A program made the position numbers and the translations under genes. From positions 1 to 7,775 of the forward strand of contig CAMLMI010000218.1 of assembly GCA_946480965.1 (NCBI GenBank): 7,775 nt of DNA, written 5' to 3'. This document shows positions 1 through 7,775 of the stretch, piece after piece. This DNA is from an uncultured Verrucomicrobiales bacterium. Lineage in GTDB: Bacteria > Verrucomicrobiota > Verrucomicrobiae > Limisphaerales > CANJSG01. Position 1 is the first letter of the stretch, and each line of letters opens with the position of its first letter. The notes beneath the pieces are model-generated. The model saw only the letters and a list, made by a program, of their open reading frames with translations. It had not been told where the DNA came from and did no database searches.

Positions 1-224
1 TGCTGCTGCTCGACGGGCACGTCCTGTTCCTCGGAGGTCACCTTGTCGAGGCCGCCCATGGCGATGAGCGACTCCTTCATGGCGTTCTCCATGCCCTTCA
101 CCACGGCGGACATGGCGACGAGGCTGCTCACGCCGAGCACGATGCCGAGCATGGTGAGCATGGAGCGGAACCGGTTGGCCCAGATTTCCTTGAACCCGAC
201 GAGGATGGCGTTGAACAGGAACAT
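1..224 (-). CDS. MacB/FtsX-type ABC transporter permease 2 (N-terminal part only)
   Basis: Only the first 74 codons lie in the window; the rest continues past the left edge. The visible protein has a short cytoplasmic start, a basic KEIWANRFRS stretch, one hydrophobic membrane segment (about residues 21-42) containing TMLGIVLGVSSLVAM, then VVKGMENAMKE and the beginning of the periplasmic domain. This is the N-terminal signature of MacB-type permeases (a MacB_PCD periplasmic domain and an FtsX-like C-terminal domain should follow). It aligns residue for residue with permease 1, with well over half of the first 60 positions identical, so the two are tandem paralogues. The ATG at 224 lies 6 bp after the stop of permease 1 and is supported by that alignment; no Shine-Dalgarno sequence precedes it. 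It probably pairs with, or replaces, permease 1 in the complex. Family is secure; substrate is unknown. Confidence 0.9.
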   Translation of the reverse strand, partial: MFLFNAILVGFKEIWANRFRSMLTMLGIVLGVSSLVAMSAVVKGMENAMKESLIAMGGLDKVTSEEQDVPVEQQ

Positions 225-230
225 CGTCGT

Positions 231-1586
231 CTATTCGTAGCGGAGCGCCTGCATGGGTTCGAGCCGGCTGGCCTTCATGGCGGGATACAGTCCCGCGAGG
301 ATGCCGACGACGACGCTGGCGGAGAAACCGACCGCCAGCGCGGTCAACGTGATCTCCGGCGTGTTGTCCGTGGGCGACGCGAACTTGAGCACCTCGACCA
401 GGCCGACCGAGGCCAGCAGCCCGGCGACGCCGCCGATGAAGGCGATGACCACGCTCTCCACCAGGATCTGCACGAAGATGTCGGGACCGGTCGCGCCCAC
501 GGCCTTGCGCAAACCGACCTCGCGGACGCGCTCGGTGATGCTGGCCATCATGATGTTCATGATGCCGATGCCGCCGACGAGCAGGCTGATCGCCGCGATG
601 AAGCCGCCGCTGATCCGCTGGTTCAGGATCGCCACCTTGATCCGCTCCGCCCAGTCCTCCTCGGTCATGAAGCCGAAGTCCTCGATGCCCTTGTGGACGG
701 ACATCAGCACGTTGCGGATCTGGCCGAGGGCGGGTTCCAGCGACTCGTAGCGGTCGAGCCGGAGGTTGATGGTGGTGAGGCGGTAGTCGGGGATGCTGTT
801 GGTGCCGGTGGCGGAACGGAAGTTCATCATGGCCGTGTTCAGCGGCATGAGGATCGTCATGTTCTTCATGTGATAGACGAAGCTGGTGCCGCCCCGGCGT
901 CCGCCACGCCCGCCGGTGCGCGGCCTCTGGTCCGGGTTCTGCGCGTAGAACTCCCGTAGCTTCTTGTCCTGCGCGCTCTCGTAGTGCTCGAACATGCCGA
1001 CGACGGTGAACGGCTGGTTGTTGAGGAAGATGACCTCGCCCACGGGATCGACCGGCTCGCCCGTCTCCTCCGGCGAGCCGAACAGCTCGTCGCGGATGGC
1101 GGTGCCGATGACGCAGACGCTGCGGGCCGATTCGTCGTCGATCTCGTTGAACATCCGGCCGTGGGCCACGCGGTGCTGGCCGATCTCCAGGTAGGAGGGC
1201 GTGGTGCCGAGGACCATCCAGGAGAAGGTGGACTTGCCGCCCTTGCGCGCGTTGATGCCGCGCAGGCGGACCTCGGGGGCGATGAGGTTCACGTAGGGCA
1301 CGTTGTGCCGGATGGCGGTCACGTCGTTCATCGTGGTGCCCACGGCCTGGTCCACGAGATGGAGCTGGTGCGGCGGCAAGTCGTCGTTCTCCACGACGCG
1401 GATGCGCTCCAGTCCGCCGATGGCGATGAACGCTTCCTTCATCCCGTTCTCCATGCCTTTCACCAGCGCGGACATGGCCACGAGGCTGGCGACGCCGAGG
1501 ATGATGCCGAGCATGGTGAGCAGGGAGCGGAACTTGTGCGCCCAGATCTCTTTCAACCCGACGGAAATGGCCATCCAGAGGTCCAT
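231..1586 (-). CDS. MacB/FtsX-type ABC transporter permease 1
   Basis: A 451-residue inner-membrane permease without a fused ATPase, the normal length for a stand-alone MacB/LolC-type subunit. Order of parts: cytoplasmic KEIWAHKFRS, first membrane segment (about residues 21-42, TMLGIILGVASLVAM), a large periplasmic MacB_PCD-type domain (about 50-320), then an FtsX-like domain with three membrane segments (about 325-350, 372-400, 414-436). The cytoplasmic loop carries the conserved TERVREVGLRKAVGAT motif (351-366), which in this family contacts the ATPase, and the protein ends with LYPAMKASRLEPMQALRYE. These proteins transmit ATPase strokes to a periplasmic adaptor to export peptides, lipoproteins or small molecules. 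The periplasmic domain has an unusual Gly/Arg-rich patch (GGRGGRRGG, 225-233). The ATG at 1586 matches the paralogue's start but lacks a Shine-Dalgarno sequence and lies only 7 bp from the end of the GxxExxY repeat unit. Substrate cannot be told from sequence. Confidence 0.93.
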   Translation of the reverse strand: MDLWMAISVGLKEIWAHKFRSLLTMLGIILGVASLVAMSALVKGMENGMKEAFIAIGGLERIRVVENDDLPPHQLHLVDQAVGTTMNDVTAIRHNVPYVNLIAPEVRLRGINARKGGKSTFSWMVLGTTPSYLEIGQHRVAHGRMFNEIDDESARSVCVIGTAIRDELFGSPEETGEPVDPVGEVIFLNNQPFTVVGMFEHYESAQDKKLREFYAQNPDQRPRTGGRGGRRGGTSFVYHMKNMTILMPLNTAMMNFRSATGTNSIPDYRLTTINLRLDRYESLEPALGQIRNVLMSVHKGIEDFGFMTEEDWAERIKVAILNQRISGGFIAAISLLVGGIGIMNIMMASITERVREVGLRKAVGATGPDIFVQILVESVVIAFIGGVAGLLASVGLVEVLKFASPTDNTPEITLTALAVGFSASVVVGILAGLYPAMKASRLEPMQALRYE

Positions 1587-1593
1587 GTGATTT

Positions 1594-1623
1594 TTAACCG
1601 CAGAAAACGCGGACTACGCAGAA
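1594..1623 (+). repeat. Left inverted repeat of GxxExxY unit (three 9-nt units)
   Basis: After the leading bases, the + strand from 1597 reads as three 9-nt units: ACCGCAGAA, AACGCGGAC, TACGCAGAA (consensus NACGCAGAA). It is the reverse complement of the right repeat with three mismatches in 30. The stop codon (TAG, 1616-1614 on the minus strand) of the GxxExxY gene lies inside it, and its outer edge is 7 bp from the permease 1 start codon. Confidence 0.8.
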
Positions 1624-2024
1624 CCGAGCTTGGAGCGGACGATGCGCTCGTATTCGAGGCCGGGATAATGGCCGAAGTTCACCAGCAGGCCGACCTTGAG
1701 GCCGGCTGCTTTGAGATAGTTGTGGACCTGGGAACGGTGCTCGTCCGCCAAAGCCTTCACCGCCTTGATCTCCAGCACCACTTGGTCGAAGCAGAGGAAA
1801 TCGGGATCGTAGGTTTGCCGCAACGGCTGGCCTTTATAGGACAGCGACAGCTTGGGTTCGTGGACCGCGGGGATGTTCTGCAAACGGAACTCCACGTCCA
1901 AACACTCGTGATAGACGGGCTCCAAGAAGCCGCAGCCCTTTTCCTTGTAGACCTCGAAGCACGCGCCGATGACGCGATACGTCTCGTCTTTCAGGGGGAA
2001 ATCGTTGTGCCGGTCGGATTCCAT
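1614..2024 (-). CDS. GxxExxY protein (PDDEXK_3-like, possible nuclease fold)
   Basis: A 136-residue protein of the GxxExxY family (TIGR04256 / Pfam PDDEXK_3). The naming motif is present as GFLEPVY (G32, E35, Y38), preceded by the typical YRVIGACFEVYKEKGCGF helix. A PD-(D/E)XK-like core follows: DPDF (D75), then LEIK (E85, K87), then HRSQVHNYLKAAG (Q99), the residues expected of that nuclease superfamily. The C-terminal half (GLKVGLLVNFG) is also typical. No member function is established as far as I know, so nuclease activity is inference from fold. The ATG at 2024 is chosen because it has a GGAAG sequence 8 nt upstream and leaves a family-like start; an in-frame TTG at 2054, overlapping the ATPase stop, would add ten repeat-encoded residues (MTAENAEDAE). 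It interrupts an ABC exporter operon and has no evident link to export. Confidence 0.9.
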   Translation of the reverse strand: MESDRHNDFPLKDETYRVIGACFEVYKEKGCGFLEPVYHECLDVEFRLQNIPAVHEPKLSLSYKGQPLRQTYDPDFLCFDQVVLEIKAVKALADEHRSQVHNYLKAAGLKVGLLVNFGHYPGLEYERIVRSKLGSA

Positions 2025-2050
2025 TTCTGCGTCTTCCGCGTTTTCTGCGG

Positions 2051-2054
<4 letters not shown>
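2025..2054 (-). repeat. Right inverted repeat of GxxExxY unit (three 9-nt units)
   Basis: On the minus strand the three units are ACCGCAGAA, AACGCGGAA, GACGCAGAA, preceded by TTG. Read in the frame of the downstream gene these give the tripeptides TAE, NAE, DAE. The outer bases TTGA hold the TGA stop of the ATPase gene, and the inner part holds the GGAAG before the GxxExxY start. It pairs with the left repeat at 27 of 30 positions. Confidence 0.8.
2033..2037 (-). promoter_or_regulatory. Shine-Dalgarno-like GGAAG for the GxxExxY gene
   Basis: GGAAG lies 8 nt upstream of the ATG at 2024 and inside the right inverted repeat. It is the only start in the window with a recognisable ribosome binding site, and it favours the ATG at 2024 over the TTG at 2054. 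Confidence 0.4.
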
Positions 2055-2752
<698 letters not shown>

Positions 2753-2758
2753 GACGGG

Positions 2759-3976
2759 TCAGGCTTTGGCGCTGCGGAGCGACGAACCGTGGAGACCGCT
2801 GCGCGCGCCGGCGCCGGGTTTGCCGGCGGACTTGGCGTCCTGGGACGGTTCCACCGCGCGGGTGCCGGGCGGTTCAAGGGAGACGGTTTCGCCGCCGTTC
2901 AGGCCGGACTGGACCTCGGCGTGGAAGAAGTCGGAAACGCCGATGCGGACGGGGCGTTTCTCGAACATCCCGTCGGCCCGCTGCACATAGACGAAGCGAC
3001 CGTCCTGTTCGGTGAACACGGCGGGCAGCGGCACGGTGACCACGTTCGAGGCGGAGGCGACGGGGATGGAGATGTTGGCCGTCATGCCGGGGCGAACGCG
3101 GGGGTCCGCGGCCTTGAGCGTGATGCGGCAGGCGAAGCCCTTGATCTGGTTCTTGATCGTCGCCTGCGGGGCGATGCGGTCCACGATGCCGACGAGCTTC
3201 AGGCCCGGCACGGAATCGATCTGGATGCCGACCTCCTGGTTCACGAAAAGGCGTGTGACATCGACCTGGTTCACGTGGGCGTTGATCACCAGATCGTTGA
3301 GGTTCGCGATGGTCAGCACCTCGGTGCCGCTGTTGAAGCCGCCGGAGCCGGACACGGCCTGCCCCACGGAGACGGGCCGGGTGAGAATGGTGCAGTCGAA
3401 CGGGGCGAAGATGCGGGTCTTGGTGAGGCGTTCCTCGACCAGCGCCAGTTCCTTCTCGGAACGCTTCAGGCTGTTCTCGGCCAAGGCCACCTCGTTCTTG
3501 GCGCGGTCCAGCGCGGTCTGGGCGTCGTCGAACAGCTCCTGCGACACGAGCCGCTCCTCGAAGAGCTGTTTGGAACGGGTGAAGTTCCGCTCGGCCTGCT
3601 CCAGGTTGAACTTCGCGCCGTTGATCGAAAGCTTCGCGCCGTCGATCTGGTCGATGCGCTGCTGGCGCTCGATCTGCAGGTCCTTGTCGTCGAGGCTGAA
3701 CAGCAGCGAGCCCTTCTTGACCGAATCGCCGATGTCCACCGGGAGCTGGTCGATCTTGCCGTTGACCTCGGGACGGACGGAAACCTGGTCGGCCGGGCCG
3801 ATGTCGCCGGCGACGTTGATGGCGAAGCTGATGTCGCGCTTCTCGGCCACGGCGGTGCTGGGAAGCTTGCTGGCGGACTCGGCCGCCGCCGGGGCGCCGC
3901 CCCATTTCTTCCAGGCGAACCAGCCCCCGCCTCCGAGGACGCCCGCCACCACCAGTGTCGTTATGAGTTTGCTCAT
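2759..3976 (-). CDS. HlyD/MacA-family periplasmic adaptor (membrane fusion) protein
   Basis: A 405-residue membrane-fusion protein that should link the ABC permeases to an outer-membrane channel. An N-terminal membrane anchor (residues 4-22) leads into a low-complexity linker, then the first half of the lipoyl/barrel-sandwich domain (about 60-100, with RPEVNGKIDQLPVDIGDSVKKG), a long coiled-coil hairpin (about 100-185, rich in E/K/Q/L), the second lipoyl half (186-225, IFAPFDCTI, VSVGQAV), a beta-barrel (228-305) ending in the family motif RVRPGMTANISI, and a membrane-proximal domain (about 315-370). The last 35 residues are low-complexity and Ala/Gly/Ser-rich. The ATG at 3976 is chosen because the anchor starts right after it; an upstream in-frame ATG at 4039 would add 21 polar residues before the anchor. 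It is the first gene of the exporter operon. No outer-membrane TolC-like gene is visible. Confidence 0.93.
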   Translation of the reverse strand: MSKLITTLVVAGVLGGGGWFAWKKWGGAPAAAESASKLPSTAVAEKRDISFAINVAGDIGPADQVSVRPEVNGKIDQLPVDIGDSVKKGSLLFSLDDKDLQIERQQRIDQIDGAKLSINGAKFNLEQAERNFTRSKQLFEERLVSQELFDDAQTALDRAKNEVALAENSLKRSEKELALVEERLTKTRIFAPFDCTILTRPVSVGQAVSGSGGFNSGTEVLTIANLNDLVINAHVNQVDVTRLFVNQEVGIQIDSVPGLKLVGIVDRIAPQATIKNQIKGFACRITLKAADPRVRPGMTANISIPVASASNVVTVPLPAVFTEQDGRFVYVQRADGMFEKRPVRIGVSDFFHAEVQSGLNGGETVSLEPPGTRAVEPSQDAKSAGKPGAGARSGLHGSSLRSAKA

Positions 3977-4040
3977 GAGAATTTGGCCCAAACTAGAGAA
4001 TGATACGTATGCGTGCAATCGGCTTTTTGCTTCCCGCACC
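3977..4040 (-). promoter_or_regulatory. Candidate promoter/leader of the exporter operon
   Basis: This is the most AT-rich stretch of an otherwise GC-rich gap and lies directly upstream of the adaptor start. A TATCAT (4005-4000) could be a -10 element, giving a leader of about 17 nt. I find no good -35 element at the proper spacing and no Shine-Dalgarno sequence before the ATG. Position and composition are the main support. Confidence 0.25.
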
Positions 4041-4352
4041 GACGAAAAAGCAGCGCGGGGAACGCGCCGGAAGGCGCAACCGATGTCGGACGGAGCCGAG
4101 ACGGGGCATGTTCAGCCGATGGCGGAGAAAAGGCCGTCCCCAATTCCGGGGACGCGCAGCGATGCCTGCGGCGAAAAGGAGCGGACGGGCTCGTCCACAA
4201 GGCCGACCAGAAGAGAATGTTCGGCGAACACCGTGGGAAGCGGGGCGGGAACTCTTTGGAGGACATGCCCATTGTGCCCTAGGGGCGCGGGACGGGTAAG
4301 AGACCGGGCTCCCCAACCCGGCGTTCGGCCTCCTTCCCGAAAACTCGCCCCT
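4041..4352. other. Intergenic region between mtnA and the exporter operon
   Basis: About 310 bp without a gene I can support. It contains one strong hairpin (4135-4154), a CCCTAGGG palindrome (4277-4284) and a weaker CCGGG/CCCGG inverted repeat (4304-4308 with 4317-4321). Reading frames are open across it on both strands, but the predicted peptides are Arg/Pro/Ser-rich, match no family I know and look like chance openings in GC-rich DNA. Confidence 0.6.
4128..4154 (-). terminator. Hairpin with short U-tract, possible terminator after mtnA
   Basis: On the minus strand CGTCCCC (4154-4148) and GGGGACG (4141-4135) form a perfect 7-bp GC-rich stem with a 6-nt loop (GGAATT), followed by GCC and a TTTT run (4131-4128). 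It could end the TPR-mtnA transcript about 200 nt after the mtnA stop. The U-tract is short, so it might instead be a REP-like palindrome or a processing site. Confidence 0.35.
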
Positions 4353-5474
4353 TCAACCTCCCAGCAACGTCCGCTTCGGCCACAGCTCCCGGGGCTTGAA
4401 TATCCCGACGGGCGTGATGATGCCGGTGATCAGCTCCGGCGGCGTGACATCGAAGCCGGGATTGCGCGCCGGGCTGGAGGGGTTCGCAACGCGCACGTAG
4501 GTGCGTTCCGCCGCCTTCCGCTTTCCGCTTTCCGCTTTCGCCGCCACGCCCCACGCCCCGAGAATTTCGCTTTCGTGCCGTTCTTCGATGGGGATGTCGG
4601 TCCCTCGTTTGAGGTTCCAGTCGATGGTGGAGAGCGGAATGGCGACGTAGAAGGGTATGCCGTGGCGATGGGCGAGGACGGCCTTGGTGTAGGTGCCGAT
4701 CTTGTTGGCCACCTCGCCGGTGCGCCCGAGGGTGCGGTCGCTGCCGACGATGACGAGGTCGATCTCCCCGCGCTGCATGAGATGGCCGGCGGCGTTGTCG
4801 GCGATGATGTGGTGGGGAATGCCCTGCTGGGCCAATTCCCAAGCGGTGAGGGTCGCGCCCTGGCTACGCGGACGGGTCTCGTCGCAGAAGACGTGGAACT
4901 TCCGCCCCTTCTCCTGCGCGGCATACATGGGCGCGGTGGCGCTGCCGTAGTCCACGAAGGCCAGCCAGCCGGCGTTGCAGTGGGTGAGCACGTTCATGCC
5001 GTTGCGGATGAGCTTCGCGCCGTGTTTCCCGATGGCGAGGCAATGCTCCGCGTCTTCGTGGGCGAATTCTTCGGCGGCGGCCAAGGCCAAGGCTTGGCGC
5101 TCGGCCACGGTCGTTCCGTCGGACATTGTCTTGCGCACACCGAGCATGGCGTTGACCGGGTCCACGGCCGTGGGCCGGGCGTCCTTCAACACTTGGAAGA
5201 CGGTTTCGAAGTGGGCCTCGAACTTGGCGAGATCCTTTCCCCGGAACACCGCCGCGCCCTGGGCCAAACCATACGCCGCCGTCGCGCCGATCGCCCCGGC
5301 GCCGCGCACGACCATGTCGCGGATGGCGGCGGCGGTTTCGCGGAAGGTGCGGGTGCGCACGATGCGGAACTCGTGCGGCAGCAGCCGTTGCTCGATCAGA
5401 CGGACTTCGTTGGCCGCCGCGTCGAAGGTGACGGTGCGGTAGTGGCGGGACTGGCCGCCGTGCTGGACGATCAT
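4353..5474 (-). CDS. mtnA: S-methyl-5-thioribose-1-phosphate isomerase (MtnA, eIF-2B-like superfamily)
   Basis: A 373-residue enzyme that converts 5-methylthioribose-1-phosphate to 5-methylthioribulose-1-phosphate in cytoplasmic salvage of methylthioadenosine. The N-terminal MVVRGAGAIGATAAYG (54-69) is the phosphate-binding region; the catalytic cysteine is C166 in LTHCNAGW and the catalytic aspartate is D246 in VGSDRT, followed by ANKIGTYTKA. The combination HCNAGWLA, DETRPRSQGA, IADNAAGHLM, FYVAIPLSTIDW and IPIEER resembles, from memory, the MtnA subgroup of Rhodospirillum-like bacteria more than the Bacillus type. A lysine-rich insert (about 311-324, AAKAESGKRKAAER) lies between conserved segments and is encoded by a triplicated 7-nt repeat. 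The ATG at 5474 is 9 bp after the TPR gene's stop, so the two are probably co-transcribed. No other methionine-salvage gene is in the window. The main alternative is another eIF-2B-like sugar-phosphate isomerase, which is less likely. Confidence 0.92.
   Translation of the reverse strand: MIVQHGGQSRHYRTVTFDAAANEVRLIEQRLLPHEFRIVRTRTFRETAAAIRDMVVRGAGAIGATAAYGLAQGAAVFRGKDLAKFEAHFETVFQVLKDARPTAVDPVNAMLGVRKTMSDGTTVAERQALALAAAEEFAHEDAEHCLAIGKHGAKLIRNGMNVLTHCNAGWLAFVDYGSATAPMYAAQEKGRKFHVFCDETRPRSQGATLTAWELAQQGIPHHIIADNAAGHLMQRGEIDLVIVGSDRTLGRTGEVANKIGTYTKAVLAHRHGIPFYVAIPLSTIDWNLKRGTDIPIEERHESEILGAWGVAAKAESGKRKAAERTYVRVANPSSPARNPGFDVTPPELITGIITPVGIFKPRELWPKRTLLGG
4516..4539. repeat. 7-nt tandem repeat (TTCCGCT x3 plus partial) inside mtnA
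   Basis: Three perfect copies of TTCCGCT (4516-4536) and a partial TTC follow head to tail on the + strand. On the coding strand they give the residues around AESGKRKA. Three copies are 21 nt, so the reading frame is kept; gain or loss of one or two copies would shift it. Confidence 0.85.
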
Positions 5475-5483
5475 GCCCGCAGG

Positions 5484-5903
5484 CTAGGAGCCCTGTTCGG
5501 AGAGTTCACCCTCAATCAACGCCTGGATGGGCGCGAAGCGTTCGTCGGCGCGGAGCTTGCGCAGATCGGGGTCCTGCATGAGCCAGTCGAAATCGCGGTA
5601 GCCGAGCTGGATGGATTTCCGGAGGGCTTCGGCCGCTTCGTCCAGGCGCTTCAGGAGAGAGAGGCTGCAGGCCAGGTTGAAGAGCACGCCGGGATCGGTC
5701 GGCTTCAGGGCCACGAGCTTCTGGTCGATGGCAAGACCCTCTTCGTGCCGCCCGCGCTTGGTGTAGTCGTCGCCGAGGATTTCCAGCGCCTCCACGTATC
5801 CGGGATCGCGGCGCAGGACGCCTTCGAGGAAGCCGATCTCGATGTCGATGTCACGCTGCTGCTTGCGGGTGAGGCGACGCCGGGACGGGTTTTTCTTGGC
5901 CAT
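5484..5903 (-). CDS. Small tetratricopeptide-repeat protein
   Basis: A 139-residue soluble protein. A basic N-terminus (KKNPSRRRLTRKQQR, residues 3-17) precedes about three helical TPR units: roughly 18-35 (partial), 36-69 (ALEILGDDYTKRGRHEEGLAID, with the G, Y, G and A positions of a TPR) and 71-104 (GVLFNLACSLSLLKRLDEA). The C-terminus has the DPDLRKLRADERF ending often seen after the last TPR in this kind of protein. TPRs bind partner proteins; no partner is evident. There is no signal peptide, so it should be cytoplasmic. The ATG at 5903 is chosen because the frame upstream (open to 6113) gives a composition unlike a protein domain and because the TPR region starts soon after. It is followed after 9 bp by mtnA, suggesting one operon, though a functional link is not established. 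Confidence 0.85.
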   Translation of the reverse strand: MAKKNPSRRRLTRKQQRDIDIEIGFLEGVLRRDPGYVEALEILGDDYTKRGRHEEGLAIDQKLVALKPTDPGVLFNLACSLSLLKRLDEAAEALRKSIQLGYRDFDWLMQDPDLRKLRADERFAPIQALIEGELSEQGS

Positions 5904-5913
5904 ACAACGGCGT

Positions 5914-5944
5914 TCTATATGTGCCCGAAGAGGTGAGCTGTCCA
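5914..5944 (-). promoter_or_regulatory. Candidate promoter of the TPR-mtnA operon
   Basis: On the minus strand TGGACA (5944-5939) and TATAGA (5919-5914) resemble -35 and -10 boxes with a 19-nt spacer (17 if CATATA is taken as the -10). The -10 is only 10 nt before the ATG, so transcription would start within a few bases of it and give a leaderless or nearly leaderless mRNA, which fits the absence of a Shine-Dalgarno sequence. Confidence 0.3.
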
Positions 5945-6215
5945 CCCCTTTTCTCCGGCGCGAAACCGGCGGAACGGGAACCGCGAATCGACCCGAATCC
6001 GCACGAGCGAGAACGGGCGGAAAGACCGCCGCAACCTCATCCGGGACCGATCTGGTTGCGGGGCATCTTCCTCCGGAGACCCAGGCCTGATCGACCGAAA
6101 AATCCCGACACAAGGTGGAGAGGTATTCGGAGACCGGCTGAACGCTTGTCCTGCTCTGGCCCGATGCTCTTGGCGGTCATCTTTCCGGGCATTTGCCCAT
6201 CTGCATCGTTCGGGA
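5945..6215. other. Intergenic region between polA and the TPR gene
   Basis: No gene can be supported here. Just past the polA stop is a small GGGC/GCCC inverted repeat (in GGGCAAATGCCC on the minus strand, about 6188-6199) without a T-run, and further on a TTTTT run with only a weak preceding stem. No convincing terminator for polA is visible. Confidence 0.5.
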
Positions 6216-7775
6216 TCAGTGCGCTTCCAGCCAGTTCGCGCCGGTGCCGATCTCCACGTCGATGGGCACGGGCAGGGGCAGGGCGGTCTTCATCTGGTCG
6301 GCGACGAGGGCGCGGACCTCCGCTTCCTCGGGGACGAAGAGGTCGAAGACGAGTTCGTCGTGGACCTGGAGGAGCAGGCGGGATTTCAGGCCGCGTTTGC
6401 CAATCTCCGCGTGGATGCGCGCCATGGCGATCTTGATCATGTCGGCGGCGGTTCCCTGGATGGGCGTGTTGATGGCGTTGCGTTCGGCCGCGCCGCGCAC
6501 GGTGGCGTTGGCGGAGTTGATGTCGCGCAGAAGACGACGGCGACCGGTCACGGTCTGGACGTAGCCATGCGTGCGGGCGAACTCGATCGTCTCCTGCATG
6601 TAGCGCTGGATGCCGGGATAGCTGCGGAAGTAGTGCTCGATGATCTCGGCCGCTTCCTTGCGCGGGATGGAGAGCCGCTGGGCCAGGCCGAAGGCCGAGA
6701 TGCCGTAGGCGATGCCGAAGTTCACCATCTTGGCCTTGCGCCGCATCTCGGGCGTGACGAGTCCGGGCATCACGCCGAAGACGCGCGCGGCAGTGGCGGT
6801 GTGGATGTCTTCGCCGTTCTGGAAGGCTTCGATCATCGCTTCCTCGCGGCTGAGCGCGGCGATGATGCGGAGTTCGATCTGGGAATAGTCGGCGGAGAGG
6901 ATGCGCCAATCAACGGCGTCCCTCGGAACAAACGCCCGGCGGATCTCCTGCCCCAGTTCGGTGCGGATGGGAATGTTCTGGAGGTTCGGATCGTTCGAGC
7001 TGAGACGGCCGGTGGCGGTGGCGCACTGGAGGTAGTTCGTGTGGACGCGGCCGGTCTTCGGATGGATCGCGGCGGGCAAGGCGTCGGCGTAGGTGCTCTT
7101 GAGCTTCGACACGCCTCGGTAGTCGAGGATGCGTTGCACGATCGCGTGCGTGCCGGCCAGCGCGGTGAGCGTCTGTTCGTCCGTGGCGAACTGGCCGGTG
7201 GCGGTCTTCTTCGGCTTCTCGACGAGCTTGAGCTCGTTGAAGAGCACTTCGCCGAGCTGCTTGTTCGAGTTCACGTTGAACTCGCGTCCGGCCAGCCGCT
7301 GGATGTCGGCCTCGGCGGCGGCCATTTCTTTCGCAAGCTGCGCGCTGAAGTCGGCCAACACGGCGGCATCGACGCGGATGCCTTCCAGCTCCATCGCGGT
7401 GACGGTGGGCAACACGGGCATCTCGACCTCGTGGAATACCTGCTCCAGCCCGTTCTCGCGAAGCATCGGCTCCAGCTTTTCACGAAGCTGCCAGGTGACA
7501 TCGGCGTCTTCGGCGGCGTAGCGGGCGACGTCTTCGACCGGCACGTCGGACATCTTGCGTTGGCCCGGCCCCTTGGGGCCGATGAGCGCCTCGATGGAGA
7601 TGGGCGAGTAGCCGAGCAAGCGTCCGGACAAATAGTCCATGCCGTGGCGTTGATCGGGCTCGATCAACGCGTGGGCGATCATGGTGTCGTAGAACGGTCC
7701 GGCGACGGCGACGCCGTGGGTCTGGAGAATGGCGAGGTCGAACTTGAGGTTGTGGCCGACTTTGAGCGCGGAGGA
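6216..7775 (-). CDS. polA: DNA polymerase I, C-terminal part (3'-5' exonuclease remainder and polymerase domain)
   Basis: The last 519 residues of a family A DNA polymerase; the frame is open to the right edge, so the 5'-3' exonuclease domain and the start are outside. The fragment begins within the proofreading domain: VGHNLKFD (residues 6-13; D13 corresponds to E. coli D424) and YAAEDADVT (Y86, D90; E. coli Y497 and D501), so Exo II and Exo III are intact while Exo I is not visible. The polymerase domain has motif A DYSQIELRIIA (D296), motif B RRKAKMVNFGIAYGIS (345-360, with F353 at the position of E. coli F762) and motif C LLQVHDELVFD (H472, D473). The conserved TATGRLSSNDPNLQNIPIR and NTPIQGTAADMIK are also present. 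It fills gaps in repair and removes RNA primers during replication. The C-terminus (NWLEAH) is normal, so the 3' end is complete. Confidence 0.97.
   Translation of the reverse strand, partial: SSALKVGHNLKFDLAILQTHGVAVAGPFYDTMIAHALIEPDQRHGMDYLSGRLLGYSPISIEALIGPKGPGQRKMSDVPVEDVARYAAEDADVTWQLREKLEPMLRENGLEQVFHEVEMPVLPTVTAMELEGIRVDAAVLADFSAQLAKEMAAAEADIQRLAGREFNVNSNKQLGEVLFNELKLVEKPKKTATGQFATDEQTLTALAGTHAIVQRILDYRGVSKLKSTYADALPAAIHPKTGRVHTNYLQCATATGRLSSNDPNLQNIPIRTELGQEIRRAFVPRDAVDWRILSADYSQIELRIIAALSREEAMIEAFQNGEDIHTATAARVFGVMPGLVTPEMRRKAKMVNFGIAYGISAFGLAQRLSIPRKEAAEIIEHYFRSYPGIQRYMQETIEFARTHGYVQTVTGRRRLLRDINSANATVRGAAERNAINTPIQGTAADMIKIAMARIHAEIGKRGLKSRLLLQVHDELVFDLFVPEEAEVRALVADQMKTALPLPVPIDVEIGTGANWLEAH

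Follow-up and report, generated by a model that had tools for sequence, protein, structure and literature searches.

The window, by which we mean the whole stretch of 7,775 nucleotides (nt) analysed here (uncultured Verrucomicrobiales bacterium, contig CAMLMI010000218.1, positions 1 to 7,775), contains an ATP-binding cassette (ABC) exporter operon in which a compact element lies between two of the exporter genes. The element consists of two terminal inverted repeats, hereafter called arms, and one gene of the GxxExxY family between them. The features of the element, followed by the genes of the host operon, are listed below; ORF stands for open reading frame.

1594..2054, no strand: whole element, 461 bp (inverted-repeat search and flank comparison)
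1594..1623, + strand: left arm (terminal inverted repeat), outside to inside; 27/30 with the right arm
1599-1605, 1608-1614 and 1617-1623, + strand: left-arm iterons CGCAGAA, CGCGGAC and CGCAGAA, 9-nt period (read from the sequence)
2025..2054, - strand: right arm, outside to inside; 27/30 with the left arm
2043-2049, 2034-2040 and 2025-2031, - strand: right-arm iterons CGCAGAA, CGCGGAA and CGCAGAA (read from the sequence)
1614..2024, - strand: GxxExxY gene, 136 aa from the ATG at 2024 (ORF list, family matches and fold prediction)
231..1586, - strand: MacB-like permease of the host operon, downstream neighbour (ORF list and family matches)
2051..2752, - strand: LolD/MacB-type ABC ATPase of the host operon, upstream neighbour (ORF list and family matches)
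2759..4039, - strand: MacA-like periplasmic adaptor of the host operon; ORF limits as listed, the true start maybe further in

An earlier note, made from the sequence of the window alone, had described 30-nt inverted repeats with 27 of 30 positions matching around 461 bp, and these are present exactly at 1594-1623 and 2025-2054. The arms are 90% complementary and 401 nt apart; the sole longer inverted pair listed in the window is 31 nt long and 71% complementary. Each arm is composed of three 7-bp words (iterons) at 9-nt spacing, so that one element has six iterons. This three-word structure was absent from the earlier note. The note had also placed the start of the ORF at one repeat and its stop within the other, and this arrangement was found. 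The listed ORF (1614-2054) begins at a TTG at 2054, which would add 10 arm-encoded residues; the ATG at 2024, which abuts the right arm on its inner side, is the likelier start. The stop codon of the GxxExxY gene falls within the left arm, and that of the ATPase gene within the outer 4 nt of the right arm. The position between an exporter ATPase and its permease and the lower GC content, both claimed from the letters alone, are borne out as well: the neighbours matched a LolD-MacB-type ATPase and a MacB-like permease, the order in the operon being MacA-like adaptor, ATPase, element and permease, and the GC content is 58.3% at 1601-2060 versus about 64-68% in segments without the element. The site is thus between ABC transporter genes, not in a 23S rRNA gene, and no Rfam family was matched at the gathering score in the window and six further loci.

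The assignment to GxxExxY in the same note was correct. The window protein matches TIGR04256 (E 1.4e-38) and PF13366 (E 4.8e-39), and the curated cut-offs of the GxxExxY models were passed (131.8 bits against 35; 133.8 bits against 22). In the family libraries, PF13366 and TIGR04256 alone were matched, with no match to an S23-type ORF. As one query, the protein has 7,095 relatives; no sequence relative was found in the PDB. Its predicted fold is of the RecB/Cas4-like PD-(D/E)XK type with the residues E..D..ExK..QxxxY, so that the predicted fold and the motif of that group are both found, and the structural model resembles Cas4/RecB nucleases. Thus, the window protein shares the predicted fold and the E-D-ExK-QxxxY positions with Cas4, lambda exonuclease and RecB, and differs from these nucleases in being a stand-alone protein of 136 aa in a mobile-element setting. 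Eight of 80 GxxExxY matches (L005, L013, L025, L039, L053, L068, L070 and L080) have a stop codon within the matched stretch or a length that is no multiple of three, which would be expected of decaying selfish genes.

Inverted arms at GxxExxY genes

The first set of loci comprised the best 80 of 160 stretches encoding relatives of the window protein, and the arm classes in it are therefore biased. For each locus, the upstream flank was locally aligned to the reverse complement of the downstream flank, and 931 control pairs were treated in the same manner. The score exceeded the 99th percentile of the controls (33) in 62 of 81 loci (the 80 and the window), while the top control pair scored 81, higher than all elements. 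Both arms were present in 70 of the 81 loci and a single arm in the remaining 11. The consensus of 91 ungapped arms is CCACGRAW-N-ACACNRAW-N-ACACGRAW, in which the C and A positions are invariant. When a weight matrix of the arm was applied to the 689 kb of loci, 268 matches scored at least 14, versus none in one Markov-shuffled copy, in which two matches scored at least 12. A repeat arising by chance is rejected by both comparisons, that of flanks with controls and that of matrix matches with shuffled sequence.

After whole-genome searches were added, 132 distinct GxxExxY genes were available, 131 of them with flanks. The inverted-flank score was above 28 in 112 of the 131 and above 33 in 94; most GxxExxY genes therefore carry inverted repeats on both sides. 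A shift of 9 nt gave the best match of an arm to itself in 57 of the 80 arms measured in this set. With full flanks, the own partner ranked within the top 5% of 127 downstream flanks in 92 of 127 cases and first in 40. The first, A/T-type arm motif proved wrong as a universal description: it missed 27 of 35 genes (those that a crude gene finder placed among 58 loci), many of which have words ending in G or other words, and the G class was added later. Further heptamers seen are CACAGAG, CACGAAG, CGCAAAG, CGCCAAG, CACGAAT and ACAGGAT. Different words also coexist within one genome, for example in G020 (L074, L083 and L102).

The coexistence of words bears on whether a host regulator, or a nucleoid protein such as IHF/HU, binds the arms. 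In Geobacter metallireducens, triplets of TCTCCGTS[Y] (reverse complement [R]SACGGAGA), paired on opposite strands, were put forward as putative IHF/HU-type regulator sites and ascribed to unknown global regulators (PMC2700814). They resemble the arms in being opposite-strand pairs of three tandem 8-9-nt words, and their class 2 word is near the word CACGGAG found at GxxExxY genes; they differ in being read there as IHF/HU sites, GxxExxY not being mentioned in the part of that paper available to us. A single regulator does not account for a genome such as G020, in which the elements use different words and each has its own word at both ends, and the conflict between element and host trees described below would be left unexplained. 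We consider regulator sites a very improbable explanation of the arms.

Other genes were rejected as the usual cargo of the 9-nt arms. Among 65 convergent arm pairs at least 350 nt apart, in a survey biased by the choice of most of its loci for GxxExxY, few lacked a visible GxxExxY frame (L038 4658-5061 and one place in G019, covered by four overlapping loci). Separately, L069 (5651-5954) has 252 nt between convergent arms with an 88-aa frame of unknown kind, possibly another cargo. In L002, L010, L019 and L022, a hairpin-like arm pair stands on each side of the GxxExxY gene, as direct repeats.

Agreement of the iterons and its relation to the protein

To compare the arms of an element, we used 46 of the 131 elements with ungapped arms of the A/T-type motif, the arms being picked by motif score and not by match to the partner. 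Variable iteron positions agree between own arms at 0.91, versus 0.65 in mixed pairs. Letter 5 is equal in 0.96 of iteron pairs within an arm, 0.96 across arms and 0.52 between elements; the corresponding values are 0.96, 0.93 and 0.74 for letter 7, and 0.85, 0.85 and 0.73 for letter 2. In contrast, the two free spacer letters match between own arms in 0.43 and 0.33 of elements, versus 0.29 and 0.26. In 83 gene-less hairpins, which are described in the next section, the iteron letters agree at 0.85 versus 0.65, and the spacers at 0.36 versus 0.26. Because the iterons agree and the spacers hardly do, the arms appear to be six sites read by a protein rather than strands held by base-pairing. Selection on a stem and copying from arm to arm are both disfavoured, since either would preserve the spacers too.

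This result bears on the idea that the RNA stem is what matters, namely that folding of the transcript gives RNase III a stem to cut and the operon tolerates the insert, with the ORF as a passenger, as in the intervening sequences (IVS) of 23S rRNA. The Coxiella IVS is similar in size, and RNase III cleaves its 28-bp terminal stem in vitro, according to the part of PMC4990558 available to us. Moreover, the window RNA folds with its arms paired (z -3.3 versus 100 shuffles), and the window element and 19 of 80 others lie between an ABC ATPase and a permease. However, a conserved stem would pair the spacer letters, which are nearly free; arm mismatches have no G-U bias on the sense strand (72 of G-U type versus 90 of A-C type, p 0.18); and letters 5 and 7 shift jointly across the three words of an arm, a joint change that pairing would not demand. 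The RNA stem is in our view an improbable explanation, less so than regulator sites.

On a protein tree of 91 labelled genes (the 40 of 131 without a clear class were excluded), the arm class, defined by the last letter as A/T or G, switches twice; in 200 shuffles the minimum was 18 and the mean 22.9 switches. Single residues were then compared with single letters in the 85 of 131 loci with a readable heptamer, residues being numbered as in the 136-aa protein. In a column scan, residue 27 best splits words with a final T (N in 8, a gap in 1) from those with a final A (K in 48, R in 2). Residue 15 goes with letter 5: T was found with G in 22 cases and S or C with A in 40, the exceptions being S with G in four and T with A in one. 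A new set of 22 usable loci, chosen for a readable heptamer and for inverted flanks that were not weak, gave T15 with G in 9 of 9 and S/C15 with A in 9 of 10 (Fisher 1.2e-4), and N27 with a final T in 6 of 6 and K27 with a final A in 3 of 4. In independent pairs on the best tree, the counts of same, opposite and no difference were 8, 0 and 3 (p 0.008) and 6, 0 and 0 (p 0.03). The window fits both correspondences (T15 with G at letter 5, K27 with a final A). These residue-base correlations are suggestive of binding of the words by GxxExxY itself, and recognition of the six iterons by the element's own nuclease-like protein is likely, being the most economical reading.

Distribution and movement of the element

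In 20 genomes searched, there are 1-9 GxxExxY matches per genome, fragments counted, and 0-281 arms of one class, versus 0-2 for a reversed-pattern control. We then used 288 Verrucomicrobiota genomes, with an identical draw in each search, which contain about 6,300 arm-pattern matches, chance matches included. A/T-class arms are in 157 of these genomes, GxxExxY in 163 and both in 132. When a genome was called arm-positive (A/T and G class) at no fewer than four matches and more than twice the control, arms were found in 140 of 163 genomes with GxxExxY versus 24 of 125 others (Fisher 1.4e-31, kinship uncorrected).

Arms also occur as gene-less hairpins, of which we counted 97 distinct ones with the same arms and less than 330 nt between them (inner length 6-252 nt). 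In seven genomes with A/T-class arms and no gene, 30 loci show short hairpins and single arms. The hairpin at 4716-4894 of L005 reads LKSESYQ-VNFGHYPKVEW, that is, the gene start joined to the gene end. This hairpin and the one at the L245 junction described below look like internal deletions of the gene, judging from their letters.

Of the 80 loci, 19 share one junction, where an ABC ATPase gene is followed by that of a large permease. We surveyed the permease in Opitutales: 66 of 177 genomes of the order had a match, and of the best 30 loci, which were read, 28 had a recognisable ATPase. The element occupies the junction in 6 of the 28 (two already in the first set), and 20 of the 28 are without it. 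For example, at the empty site of L235 only 11 nt separate the genes, and the permease is 76% identical to that of L028. At L245, a 124-nt gap holds both arms but no more of the gene than its initial codons. The state of L263 is uncertain, and L261 has a 211-nt gap without arms. In addition, L238 has a 65-nt gap with apparently one ACAGGAT-type arm, and L259 and L262 carry a different small ORF in a 359-nt gap at the same junction, which may be a general insertion spot.

At this junction, the identities of GxxExxY and permease are uncorrelated (rho 0.13, p 0.096, the poorly read L023 included). Approximately unbiased (AU) tests were applied to 18 of the 19 junction loci, L023 being dropped because its permease frame was not cleanly read; the groups were chosen after the trees had been inspected. 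GxxExxY data reject the host groupings {L033, L035, L037} (p 0.0013) and {L057, L080, L074} (p 7e-12), and a group of seven CGGAA-armed loci is rejected by the permease (p 9e-59) and ATPase data (p 9e-5). The arm type goes with the element, not with the host genes. Because the trees of element and host genes conflict, it seems that whole units with their arms have been swapped, or have inserted anew, at this one junction.

As in a transposable element, inverted ends bound a unit that is present at different sites, and relatives have empty sites at the Opitutales ATPase-permease junction. The view that the element is a mobile unit is well supported. The earlier note had supposed a small mobile unit, and the occupied, empty and deleted states of the junction, the tree conflict, the 1-9 matches per genome and the arms that follow the gene clade all agree with it. 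Two of the checks that the note named had a mixed outcome. An empty ATPase-permease junction was found in Opitutales (L235) and not in a close relative of the window: homologues of the window operon (29-40% identity, 30 loci) have no insert of this size in 20 readable junctions, all distant, where the gap is -4 to 142 nt versus 464 in the window, and the best full-length permease relatives in the 288 genomes are 40-42% identical. Repeats independent of the gene, which the note had set as evidence against its proposal, do exist as the 97 hairpins, mostly in genomes that also hold the gene. A phage or plasmid vehicle was rejected, with 0 matches in 50,697 phage records and 8 in 72,556 plasmid records, all below 60% identity. 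As a separate observation, the MacB-type ATPase-permease gaps of L146 and L155 hold short tandem repeats of other words.

Proposed mechanism and comparison with known systems

The stretch in the window is probably one copy of a widespread, compact selfish element with a RecB/Cas4-like nuclease of its own that recognises the iteron ends, with the gene-less hairpins as derivatives. We infer cleavage and insertion as the steps that move it. Its two inverted arms of ~28 nt, with three iterons each, enclose the single gene for the RecB/Cas4-like GxxExxY protein. In the proposed scheme, this protein most likely binds all six iterons of the element that encodes it, because the main variable letters change together in the six words and go with the protein clade, and because two residues track two letters. 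The bound protein would bring the ends together and then cut or resect them. By copying or pasting, the element would then enter permissive gaps, for instance stop-start junctions within operons. Repair of a break against another copy may serve for this, and would also explain how an element of one type came to replace that of another type at a given junction. The gene-less hairpins with the same arms would be non-autonomous derivatives. An action of the PDDEXK-like protein on the repeats, suggested in the earlier note, thus gains indirect support from the concordance of iterons with little concordance of spacers and from the residue-base correlations.

Several observations weigh against this proposal. 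The residue-base link is the best of a scan with 64 columns for letter 5, where V111 ties with residue 15; the p value of 0.008 alone fails correction for 64 columns, and 1-2 independent pairs are left on supported branches. K27 is also found with a final G (9 training rows), and a final T with several residues. Letter 4 agrees at just 0.72 within an arm and 0.67 across arms, versus 0.56 between elements, and letter 4 of the middle word at 0.54 between own arms versus 0.46. Plain linkage of gene and arms would likewise make the arm class track the protein tree. There is no clear excess of target-site duplications in 61 arm pairs, the ends of which are not fixed to the base. Neither arm class is present in 23 of the 163 GxxExxY genomes, and because 24 of the 125 genomes without a GxxExxY match carry arms (for example G284, G264 and G250), another mobiliser or old remnants must be allowed. 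Finally, the hairpins of G016, many with unequal arms, sit inside a larger dispersed repeat. In this family (L326-L345), which mostly has a 79-bp hairpin core, the arms often differ (CGGAA versus CGAAA) and the outer flanks are alike too; these hairpins seem to have been amplified within the larger repeat.

The arms and hairpins in genomes without a GxxExxY match, the lack of a clear target duplication and the larger G016 repeat that contains hairpins would all suit a passenger unit, in which an unrelated enzyme encoded elsewhere in the genome moves the gene together with its arms and GxxExxY has another role, for example in defence or repair. Such a unit would leave unaccounted for that the arm class tracks the GxxExxY clade and two residues track letters, that gene and arms co-occur strongly at the genome level, and that elements with different words share one genome, as in G020. 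We judge the passenger unit unlikely, if less so than an effect of the RNA stem.

The element is real and belongs to a large class of compact elements, no description of which was found in the literature. Beyond the window, we tentatively suggest, at somewhat less than even confidence, a new superfamily of minimal selfish elements that are moved by their GxxExxY proteins. These Cas4/RecB-like nucleases would recognise a heptamer code in the six iterons at the ends of their own element, with letters 5 and 7 determined in part by residues 15 and 27. They would occupy stop-start junctions in several bacterial phyla and leave hairpin remnants mistaken for regulatory repeats; TIGR02436 with 7-8-nt arms would be a parallel superfamily and IVS members of the same class. 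Should the element model be correct, the very large GxxExxY family would be explained, thousands of short inverted tandem repeats would acquire a meaning, a further class of nucleases would be added to the DNA-moving enzymes, and there would be a small protein whose code for a 7-bp word can apparently be read. The proposal would also bear on the old question of why a small ORF lies between inverted repeats in IVS.

Terminal inverted repeats, and gene-less hairpins alongside gene-bearing copies, are features of miniature inverted-repeat transposable elements (MITEs), of repetitive extragenic palindromic (REP)-RAYT systems and of insertion sequences, as here. The element differs from these in having three-iteron ends and a protein of the Cas4/RecB group, without a transposase of known type or a clear target duplication. 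Homing endonuclease genes likewise combine a nuclease-like gene that recurs at one site with a conflict between element and host trees; the present element differs in bringing its own repeat ends, and its preference for the junction is putative.

By analogy, the closest architecture is that of the 23S rRNA IVS. In the available part of PMC4990558, the Coxiella IVS is described as a 428-nt element of unclear origin that has a terminal stem of 28 bp and contains one small ORF, for which earlier work cited there proposed a role in mobility. The likeness lies in a length of about 430 nt and terminal inverted repeats of ~28 nt with one small ORF between them. In contrast, IVS are inserted in rRNA genes and their protein is a different one, whereas the window element lies between protein genes and encodes a predicted RecB/Cas4-like protein. 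Among the papers returned by literature searches for GxxExxY and PF13366, the available parts contained no description of the function of the family; GxxExxY is named in the part of PMC8934634, a paper on CRISPR-associated reverse transcriptases, that was available. A literature search with the sequence letters gave unrelated papers alone among the 15 listed. The TAACTGA repeats of Beggiatoaceae are mostly direct and are not tied to the GxxExxY family in the available parts of PMC4679880 and PMC4853749.

The genomes were also searched for TIGR02436, and 17 of the 20 searched contain it. We take this family to be the S23-type family of IVS. In its loci (L264-L293), the inverted-flank score was above 28 in 15 of 25 readable cases, and the arm period was 7 in 11 of these, 8 in three and 6 in one. 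TIGR02436 genes are often bracketed by inverted arms with a period of 7 nt, or in some cases 8 nt (for example L272, L267, L278 and L284), a class parallel to the 9-nt arms of GxxExxY.
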